DNA of 64,000 nt from Tribonema minus (lineage: Eukaryota > Sar > Xanthophyceae > Tribonematales > Tribonemataceae), in assembly GCA_017506865.1 (NCBI GenBank), contig JAFCMP010000056.1:186001-250000 (forward strand). Direction: 5' to 3'. This document shows positions 1 to 63,999 of the stretch, in pieces (positions within the stretch are counted from its first letter, which is position 1; each line of letters begins with the position of its first letter). The notes below the pieces were generated by a model. That model had not been told where the DNA came from. It saw nothing but the letters and a program-made list of their open reading frames with translations, and made no database searches. The position numbers were made by a program, and so were the translations under genes.

Positions 1-831
1 TTCCACAGTACCTGCCAGAGCCATGCCGCCATCACCACGAGTGCGCGCGACGCGTTCAGGTTCAACCTTCAAGCGACTTAAAAGTGTTGAACTTGCCTAC
101 ATCTCGTCGAGCACTGCGAATCGCTTGGTGCAAACCTGTGCGCCGCGTGCCGCAAGGTTACACTCCAAGCCATGAAGTCGAGGCGCGCATCGAGTGAAGC
201 TGCAACTCGCCACGCAAAAGCCGTGCCGTCAGGCTCACGATTGAGCGGCAGGAGCTTGAGCTCGAGCTCGAGATCGACAGCCATGCCTGCATCTCGTCGA
301 TCACGGCACTCGCTTGGAGCCTGCAGCGCGCCGCGCATGCTGCAAAGTGCAACATCAGACACACAATTTGACGTTGTGCGTCCAAACGAGGCTTCCACGG
401 TACCTCCCACAGCCATGTCGCCTTCGCCACGAGTGCGCGCAACGCATTCGGGCTCAACTTTCAAGCTGTTGGTCTTGGCTGCATCTCGTCGAGTTAATGA
501 GTTCGATCATCATCAGGGCGGTGGTTTTCCGGCATCATCCGCACACTTCCCCTAGTGACGGTGAGTGAAGCGGGAGCTCACGGCGACAACTCGTGGCTGT
601 AGAGTACGCAATTGTAGGCTAGCGGCGATCTTGCCTGCATCTCGTCGAGCACTGCGATCGCTTGGTGCAAATCTGTGCGCCGCGTGCCGCAAGGTTACAC
701 TCCAAGCCATGAAGTCGAGGCATACATCGAGTGAGCTGCAACAACCCACGCCAAAGCCATGCACTCAGGCTCACGAGTCCGCGCAACGAGTTCAGATTCA
801 CAGTTCAAGCGACTTCAAAGTGGTGACTTGC
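1..831 (-). repeat. Echo array of the 3' edge of the PPR exon at 1047-832
   Basis: At least three decayed copies of the exon end (coding CWRQAIAVLDEMQ plus its GC-type donor) lie near 95-130, 283-322 and 630-665, with a shorter piece near 478-495. On the + strand each reads as TGCCTGCATCTCGTCGA followed by an AGCACTGC-like stretch. The copies near 135-200 and 670-740 also share the flanking text GTGCGCCGCGTGCCGCAAGG, so the repeat unit is exon edge plus intron. Confidence 0.75.
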
Positions 832-63400: not shown

Positions 63401-63999
63401 TTTGTACACTGCGACAAAGCACAGACGAGCCATGGCATACATACCTCTGCTGCTGCGCATAGGTAGCGCAGATGGCAGTGCTCAGGAGCTCGCAAAATCG
63501 CTCCGCAAAACACCACCAACGCATCCAGGAGCCTGAGCCTTGCAAAGCTAGCAAAACTGACACGCAGCTGGGCCAGGGTTCGTTAGGGTTATCATAGCTG
63601 GGTTGAGGTTAGGATAAGGGGTCGCGTTGAAGTTATCACAGTGCTCAGCAACACATCGGTGAGTTAGGGTTTAGTAGGGTCAGCGCAGGGTGGCAGCGCT
63701 CACTTGCTCCAACAGCAATCAGCAAGCGCCGACGCATTCCTGGCTTATGTAGGGTTTCGTAGGGTTAGCACAGGGTGACAGTGCTCACCCGCTCCAGGAG
63801 CTCGCCGGCCCGGCCGTCGACCTCCGCCGCTCGCGCGGCGGCGGCGCCGCGCTCCTCGTCGAGGCGGCGACACTCGTCGCGAACGCGCCGCAGCTCGTCC
63901 TGCACGCGCACATCATTGAAGTTGCAGTTCAACAACTAGATAAATACCAGGTCCTCCATGCGCGAGGGCATGAAGTGCGCAGTCGCGTTGAAGTATGCG
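54436..63999 (-). CDS. Long coiled-coil protein; 5' end off the right edge
   Basis: Exons recognised with compatible phases: 63899-63789, 63065-62931, 62332-62249, 61120-60983, 60060-59881, 57515-57397, 56250-56091 and 55050-54436 (stop TAG). A further likely exon begins near 58749 (DAQLRRLNLDQHSGRRQEDIARAVLS). The first five are symmetric phase-0 exons encoding Ala/Glu/Arg heptads such as DELRRVRDECRRLDEERGAAA, RLAGLVTQLEATVASRTAAL and DLRAQLATKASTIDHLWEKV. The last exon gives a globular AYKGATDANGLPREVADMDRASLLQLVAWF segment, a glutamine tract and a basic Ala/Pro/Ser tail. Architecture suggests a cytoskeletal, centrosomal or vesicle-tether protein, but I do not recognise it. Exons between 59881 and 57515 are uncertain. 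Confidence 0.68.
54860..54893 (-). repeat. CAG (poly-Gln) tract in the coiled-coil gene
   Basis: About ten CTG on the + strand, coding nine or ten Gln after the APQK residues in the last exon. A typical length-variable tract. Confidence 0.85.
55068..55088 (-). repeat. Telomere-like tract upstream of the last coiled-coil acceptor
   Basis: On the transcript strand, CGTAACCCTAACCCTAAGC lies about 20 bases before the acceptor at 55051. A second tract lies at 55164-55182. Confidence 0.85.
56290..56860 (-). repeat. Echoes of coiled-coil exon 56250-56091
   Basis: Copies of the exon start and neighbouring codons (ALRQLADQERDDQHKL and MRQAYA) lie near 56330-56390, 56480-56550, 56590-56660 and 56755-56800. 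They keep GCTCCTGGTCCGCCAGCTGC-like + strand text. They lie upstream of the real acceptor in transcript order. Confidence 0.75.
57530..57830 (-). repeat. Echoes of coiled-coil exon 57515-57397 start
   Basis: Copies of the CGCCGCGCCGCAGCAGCTGCA block lie at about 57685-57715 and 57800-57825. CAGTGCCAACGCTCTACGAT-like spacers recur at 57550, 57616 and 57736. Confidence 0.7.
58340..58560 (-). repeat. Echoes of the candidate exon near 58749-58660
   Basis: Copies of the EDIARAVLSK end lie at about 58360-58390 and 58500-58530. Their flanks share CACGTGCAGTTACGCCTTGG and ATGTATATCATGCTCACATG-like text. Donors here look non-canonical (GC), so the true exon end is unclear. Confidence 0.6.
58990..59440. 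other. Intron DNA of the coiled-coil gene, nothing else seen
   Basis: Mixed composition and no exon-like frame on the minus strand. Short + strand frames are not convincing. Confidence 0.4.
59440..59750 (-). repeat. Two echoes of coiled-coil exon 60060-59881 end
   Basis: Copies of ARAALEEKLAQQ plus the donor lie at about 59715-59760 and 59440-59500. TTAGGG (sense) repeats at 59558-59603 lie between them. Confidence 0.8.
60180..60535 (-). repeat. Three echoes of coiled-coil exon 60060-59881 start
   Basis: Copies of the acceptor plus ATASVADLRAQLA lie at about 60200-60245, 60360-60390 and 60480-60520. CCCTAA (sense) tracts at 60334-60352 and 60441-60452 lie between them. Confidence 0.8.
60803..60847 (-). 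repeat. Telomere-like tract downstream of a coiled-coil donor
   Basis: + strand CCCTAACCCTAACCCTAACC, so TTAGGG on the transcript, about 135 bases after the donor at 60982. The same intron ends with CCCTAA tracts. Confidence 0.85.
61185..61645 (-). repeat. Four echoes of coiled-coil exon 61120-60983 start
   Basis: Copies of the acceptor plus AAEQRMTAALSA lie at about 61195-61240, 61318-61360, 61453-61495 and 61564-61610, every 115-125 bp. Spacers share TCGACCTGGGGACAGTTACA and GACAGTTACGAC. Confidence 0.85.
61800..61945 (+). mobile_element. Third copy of the retroelement 3' tail
   Basis: CATGTAGATTCTGATTGCAA, then CTGGGCTTTTTTTGCGCCTGGGGCGAGAATTGATGAGTAGTAC matches 33981-34050 in order. It sits in an intron of the coiled-coil gene, opposite to its transcription. 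No coding part is attached. Confidence 0.65.
62350..62372 (-). repeat. Telomere-like tract at the acceptor of exon 62332-62249
   Basis: On the transcript strand (CCCTAA)n is followed by CTTCTTCGCACGATTTTGCAG, the acceptor. It is the likely branch-point region. Confidence 0.85.

Follow-up and report, generated by a model that had tools for sequence, protein, structure and literature searches.

Exon edges in Tribonema minus are repeated in the adjoining introns, with the acceptor and exon start copied upstream of the exon and the exon end and donor copied downstream, an arrangement put forward in the preliminary description of this DNA and borne out by the lipase-like gene described below, in which copies lie only on those sides. 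These echoes are common across genes, yet absent from some. It is probable that tandem duplications across splice junctions turned the extra copies into intron. The window, that is, the whole 64,000-nucleotide stretch of DNA analysed, is part of contig JAFCMP010000056.1 of the T. minus assembly (158 Mb, 554 contigs). Self-comparison of the window gave 76 pairs, with 72 direct local pairs (lag below 1,500 bp) and one inverted local pair, the remainder being two inverted pairs at more than 16 kb and one direct pair at 2.7 kb. In another 18 stretches of the genome, 11 of them surrounding chaperonin genes and seven arbitrary, 182 local pairs were direct and four inverted, spread very unevenly, from none at two chaperonin loci up to 28 elsewhere. 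Both sets of pairs show the direct orientation close to the source that is expected of tandem duplication. The window's one local inverted pair (44145-44559 and 44844-45234) is 81.9% identical and 699 bp apart. Two inverted copies at 14158-15342 (-) and 30537-31719 (+) are 87.7% identical, and an open frame that overlaps the latter matches the glycosyl hydrolase 26 domain.

Echoed exon edges in a lipase-like gene

The + strand gene at 16.7-27.4 kb has a class 3 lipase domain match, and we take it to be diacylglycerol-lipase-like. It was modelled as 12 exons with GT-AG borders, which join into a single open frame of 726 residues. Five homologues were found besides the alga's own protein and three were used in the alignment; all three cross the junctions of the 12-exon model without insertion, and the differences lie within exons, chiefly a stretch of exon 4 that is missing in the homologues, with further gaps in or near exons 5/6, 9 and 11. 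Exon 1 (16679..17047, start uncertain by 2 nt) has an upstream echo at 16481-16542, exon 2 (17171..17368) has a downstream echo of its end and donor at 17455-17510, and exon 3 (17799..17896) has downstream echoes at 17939-17974 and 18038-18093. Exon 4 (18518..18847) is echoed on both sides, upstream at 18329-18388 and downstream at 18925-18960 and 19033-19068, followed by exon 5 (19799..19942) with upstream echoes at 19582-19641 and 19693-19750, and by exon 6 (20846..21049) with three upstream echoes (20316-20375, 20472-20531 and 20671-20730) and one downstream (21121-21172). No echo of exon 7 (22064..22130) was found in the edge test. Exon 8 (23176..23289) has upstream echoes at 22578-22618 and 23035-23075 and downstream echoes at 23357-23411 and 23482-23541; exon 9 (24049..24212) has a weak upstream copy, in an array at 23804-24074, that scored 35 against the threshold of 50; and exon 10 (24772..24876) has an upstream echo at 24601-24652. 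Exon 11 (25465..25647) is flanked by echoes upstream (25236-25295 and 25354-25414) and downstream (25717-25777, 25882-25941 and 26093-26155). Exon 12 (27204..27405), the last of the model (a further exon downstream is possible), has an upstream echo at 26971-27023 and downstream echoes at 27484-27543, 27648-27699, 27782-27841, 27940-28003 and 28098-28155. Telomere-like CCCTAA runs occur in the window at 22359-22395, 25421-25464, 27160-27203, 39091-39117, 51512-51546, 59560-59604 and 60809-60845, and at least two of them stand immediately 5' of a 3' splice site, in place of a pyrimidine tract.

The public model of this gene, P0121 (JKP88DRAFT_302526), annotates echo copies as small exons from 16481, 18333, 20470 and 20672, stops at exon 6 of our model and lacks the second half of the gene. 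Since echoes were taken for exons here, other gene models of the genome may be wrong in the same way, and the arrays can help to locate missed exons.

Fifteen of the 24 exon edges were copied in the adjoining intron at a score of at least 50, rather than each exon edge as had been claimed. The same test gave no hit for the reverse complement (0/24), the intron on the wrong side (0/16) or elsewhere in the window (0/240), and 3 of 31 exon interiors were copied. A profile of 60-bp windows along the gene showed that 69% of exon starts have an upstream copy and none a downstream copy, that 59% of exon ends have a downstream copy and none an upstream copy, and that repeats fill the introns, about 25% of intron windows having a copy on each side. 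Windows within exons, over 45 bp from an edge, had copies at 16% and 12% on the two sides, because some units extend that far in.

Occurrence across genes and anatomy of the copied unit

In chaperonin genes, where Pfam hits served to place the junctions, echoes were found for 12 of 61 edges at a score of 50, at which the controls gave 0/61 (reverse complement), 3/610 (introns of other genes), 0/32 (wrong side) and 0/55 (exon interiors); at the 99% threshold of 35, one of the 55 interiors was copied. Four junctions of this set could not be placed, pairs separated by a profile gap of more than 14 were not used, and some chaperonin subunit 7 junctions were off by 1-3 nt. The comparison of edges with interiors, which the preliminary description had named as a way to refute its claim, therefore came out in its favour in the chaperonin genes and in the lipase-like gene alike. 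When one-sided exons were added, 42 of 109 edges in 11 genes were echoed, by 89 copies in all; four Pfam hits were not counted as exons, since each was taken for an echo of a longer hit beside it, and one doubtful junction of L045 was left out of the edge count. Besides the 15/24 of the lipase-like gene, echoed edges numbered 5/12 in L038, 5/5 in L041, 3/10 in L045, 8/12 in L046, 2/5 in L047 and 3/4 in L048, and four chaperonin genes had a single one (L039, 1/12) or none (L040, 0/7; L043, 0/3; L044, 0/15). The earlier statement that echo arrays occur in every gene does not survive these counts.

Both strands of the window are affected, as had been noted, and echoes were tied to an identified gene in three cases, not the five or more that had been reported. 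On the - strand, the pentatricopeptide repeat (PPR) gene (8828..9126) has a segment at 8828-8945 that overlaps the PPR match, with a copy at 9008-9126 that lies upstream on the gene's strand (lag 180 bp, 87% alike). The arginine/creatine kinase-like gene, also on the - strand, has an exon end plus GTGAG with a downstream echo of period 94 bp (49525..49707); further along (49740..50225), a segment at 49740-49817, upstream of the exon end, has a copy at 50150-50225 with a lag of 410 bp, where an exon start is only possible. Further arrays of the window, not tied to a gene, lie for example at 56-57 and 61 kb. An 877-codon open frame at 46541-49174 (-), rich in alanine, lysine and serine, contains internal repeats at 47580-48018. 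An Rfam search gave nothing above gathering scores in the window.

Elsewhere in the genome, inspection by eye showed no echoes in a pair of HSP70 genes (L058 and L059). These two genes, 24 kb apart on C522, share long identical stretches, including a whole intron, beside well-diverged introns, which is a pattern of patchy gene conversion. A gene-free test of GTRAG/YAG sites in the repeat pairs of the seven arbitrary stretches (two donor-like and 31 acceptor-like sites) gave no clear exon-side excess, with donor sites too scarce to be informative. When 30 open frames in the same stretches were scanned with Pfam, three matched genes and one a reverse transcriptase, numbers too small for a verdict on whether the arrays avoid intergenic DNA. 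Fragments of the RuBisCO large subunit, each with an in-frame stop, are present at C334:714136-714324 and C112:516888-517037, on contigs of about 2 Mb, and are likely to be plastid DNA that moved to the nucleus.

The copied unit spans the splice junction, in agreement with the preliminary description. Among the 89 copies of the 11 genes, 84 extend to within 3 nt of the junction, and the intron flank beyond it is similar in 64 of these 84 (above the 95% point of unrelated flanks; about four would be expected by chance). As the similarity crosses the junction, a junction-spanning piece was copied at the DNA level, not from spliced RNA. The length of the whole unit agrees only at some edges, and at several one-copy edges the intron similarity stops well short of the length predicted for a clean tandem unit. 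Echoed edges have one to six copies, as had been stated, and the nearest copies have lags of 78-323 bp plus one of 710 bp, with a median of about 150 bp. At the 37 edges whose nearest copy has a lag below 260 bp, the unit, usually about 150 bp long, takes in 27-112 bp of exon (the lower bound is set by detection) and no less than 40 bp of intron. The median lag is 176 bp on the acceptor side, with 58 bp of exon and 100 bp of intron, and 138 bp on the donor side, with 53 and 71 bp; the minimum of the intron part on the acceptor side could be due to selection keeping the branch point and tract. The copied part never exceeds 0.52 of the exon at the 37 edges, so whole exons were not copied, as they would be in duplicated alternative exons; full alternative exons in transcripts were what the preliminary description had named as contrary to its reading. 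The many near-identical copies of a minisatellite are likewise lacking, with one to six copies per edge and no pair of at least 45 bp at 97% identity.

Decay and origin of the copies

Divergence per site, calibrated on simulated decay, was about 0.10 in the exon part and about 0.30 in the intron part of 84 copies. The neutral expectation for the ratio of intron to exon divergence is 2, if the exon part changes in the copy only and the intron part in both partners. The observed ratio of about 3 may result from ascertainment, faster intron turnover or some homogenisation, and the excess possibly leaves room for a little homogenisation or constraint. Strong conservation of the exon parts, suggested by eye in one copy (97%, compared with about 60%), had been considered and was dropped, the ratio being only about 3 against 2 over the 84 copies. 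Mismatches in the exon parts of 29 copies listed by hand were distributed over codon positions 1, 2 and 3 as 69/559, 52/559 and 87/561 (0.123, 0.093 and 0.155); with mismatches on all codon positions, the echoes are not constrained as coding sequence. The lags of the 89 copies modulo 3 (32/30/27) show no bias to multiples of three. The splice dinucleotides were kept in 75 of 84 copies (GT in 36/41 and AG in 39/43), against an expectation at 10% divergence of 81%, or about 68 of 84. The copies look like neutral relics, and these measurements fit that description.

The nearest copy outscores the farthest at 17 of 22 multi-copy edges, which upholds the observation that the nearest copies are the least decayed. 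Relative to the exon, 169 changes are shared among copies and 801 are unique (distance ratio 0.68), and the shared derived changes indicate that arrays grew partly from existing copies, or that the exon itself changed. A steady duplication process should leave some pairs at 97% identity or more, yet among 296 local pairs (the window and 22 stretches) none of at least 45 bp reaches that value; the best stands at 96.1%, one 39-bp pair reaches 97.4%, and two echoes are identical to the exon over 43-45 bp, yet have intron flanks at 0.88. The duplications therefore possibly belong to a past wave. Duplication has either ceased or become slower, or else the assembly lacks recent copies.

The direct orientation, the junction-spanning unit, edges echoed far above interiors and the presence of 42 of 43 arrays at an edge together make duplication across exon borders the best fit, so the earlier proposal that introns grow in this way is partly supported, but not for every gene. 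Segments of about 100-250 bp straddling a splice junction would have been duplicated in tandem and in direct orientation, the exonic breakpoint lying some 30-110 bp from the junction and the intronic one 40 bp or more from it. Splicing would stay at the junction beside the intact exon, using the first of the donors or the last of the acceptors, a supposition supported by the colinear homologues, and the extra copy with its own splice site would fall within the intron and decay freely. Repeated events and the re-duplication of copies would give arrays of one to six and a longer intron, and would leave the protein unchanged. The orientation, the junction-spanning unit, the edge specificity and the neutral-looking decay are direct observations; that the act was tandem duplication is our inference, and its origin may lie in break repair or in slippage.

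The figure of 42 arrays in 43 was obtained from four array-bearing genes with nearly full exon sets, for which random placement in the same introns predicts 17.1 contacts with an exon edge, rising to 26.7 if arrays at edges remain visible three times longer and to 30.9 if five times longer. Contact was defined as a 2-bp overlap, and under a 12-bp rule one L038 array fails to touch. The count leaves out two of 16 lipase arrays and two of 15 L041 arrays without a bounded intron, one of eight L038 arrays that lies inside another, and the genes L045, L047 and L048, whose exon sets are incomplete; several L041 and L038 exon positions in it are profile segments, and one L041 start was moved 6 bp outward by hand. 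Under the 12-bp rule, arrays touched an exon in 16 of 16 cases in the lipase-like gene (with a 24-bp repeat tract at 24902-25148 merged into the exon 11 array) and in eight of nine in L046. Six of the 15 L041 arrays lie at a known exon and nine do not; a profile search placed chaperonin-like segments, colinear in the profile, at all nine, several of them with weak scores, one overlapping its array by only 8 bp, and all judged after the arrays were known. After the profile search, L048 still had four arrays without any exon, and L047 and L045 had one each.

These counts bear on a reading that we consider unlikely, in which tandem duplication is uniform in all non-coding DNA, duplications internal to exons are purged, and edges look special through their conserved partner and through introns that were once about as short as a unit. 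The exon partner does decay more slowly, the unassigned arrays of L045, L047 and L048 may be intron-only, and simulated uniform duplication from 100-bp starting introns gave a mean of 12-14 echoed edges (15 in the real gene), with some runs free of intron-only arrays. Those runs, however, overfilled the intron interiors (0.39-0.71 against 0.24 observed), runs from 300-400-bp introns had at least two intron-only arrays in 48 of 48 cases (none in the lipase-like gene), and even the fivefold lifetime falls short of the observed contacts. Random breakpoints, simulated and measured in the same way, also predict an exon part above 0.7 of the lag in 30-33% of units and an intron part below 40 bp in 29-30%, against 0/37 for each in the real units. 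Over a small grid of settings, the closest simulation to the data was edge-limited duplication from 400-bp introns, the best-fitting runs of which had 12-13 arrays against 16 in the gene. The edge preference may reflect exon-anchored breakage, or a splicing-accuracy filter added to mutation. We suggest only tentatively that some exon-tied process (splicing-coupled transcription, exon chromatin or exon-specific nicking) aimed duplication at splice junctions and, in a past wave, copied windows of some 55 bp of exon plus 70-100 bp of intron, thereby setting intron length across many genes. T. minus is reported to encode DNMT5 and HELLS (PMC10538959), so that exon methylation, together with its repair, can be offered as no more than an idea for testing.

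Selection on the echoes as alternative exon ends or reserve splice sites would account for GT/AG retention slightly above expectation, for exon parts more conserved than the 2:1 neutral ratio and for the small exons of the public gene model, but it is very improbable given that mismatches fall on all codon positions with only a mild third-position excess, that the lags ignore the reading frame and that such insertions are absent at the junctions of the three aligned homologues. We attach still less credence to the echoes being a relic of intron gain by tandem duplication of AGGT-bearing exon segments (the Rogers model). That mechanism is described as established elsewhere, and seven of the 12 lipase exons end in AG and eight of 12 begin with G; it would, however, put a duplicate of the upstream exon's end at the intron's far (3') end, and here the nearest copies are some 150 bp away from the junction they belong to, the intron ends do not copy the opposite exons, the similarity runs on into intron sequence, and 10 of the 11 lipase introns are 430-1556 bp long. 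Mobile elements or introners would explain introns full of repeats, yet they would put the same sequence at many unrelated loci, and the copies are private to their own exon (0/240 elsewhere in the window and 3/610 in other-gene comparisons), which leaves this the least credible of the readings.

Comparison with known systems

Intron lengthening has so far mostly been inferred indirectly, and in T. minus the steps of growth are directly legible, each copy having in the exon a reference that did not decay, so that age, size and breakpoints can be measured for individual introns. No account of arrays anchored to exon edges on such a scale came up in a literature search with thin coverage of subscription journals. 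The earlier remark that systematic splice-junction echo arrays were not known needs qualification, since junction-crossing tandem duplication is known from at least one single case, the RdRp gene of potato, in which the published text describes a tandem duplication across an intron-exon boundary that took along the 3' splice site, the tract and the exon start (PMC4974935). That was a single event that made a new intron and exon, whereas T. minus has dozens of copies at both kinds of junction, with the extra copy kept inside an existing intron.

In Daphnia, new introns are reported to grow longer through recurrent staggered breaks; direct repeats occur in introns there (55 of 90 new introns), introns show a passive trend to greater length and terminal exon bases are repeated (PMC4202315). 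The repeats shared with exons are 4-12 bp there and lie at the opposite end of the new intron, in contrast to the units of about 150 bp beside their own junction in T. minus. Local tandem duplication with removal of the extra copy by splicing is also a property of the system in PMC2891723, as presented there; its source is purely exonic and it creates an intron, whereas in T. minus the unit includes intron sequence and makes an existing intron longer. Fill-in and joining of staggered ends is a further source of small tandem duplications; in mouse cells, the CST complex and polymerase alpha-primase take part when the protrusion is 3' (PMC8355091). This mechanism gives direct tandem copies like those seen here; it differs in being described in mouse cells, with overhangs of about 43-50 nt and, in the portion of the source drawn on, no described tie to exon edges. 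The feature is real and structured, and to tandem duplication, which is already known, it adds a bias towards splice junctions and a copied unit of characteristic make-up.
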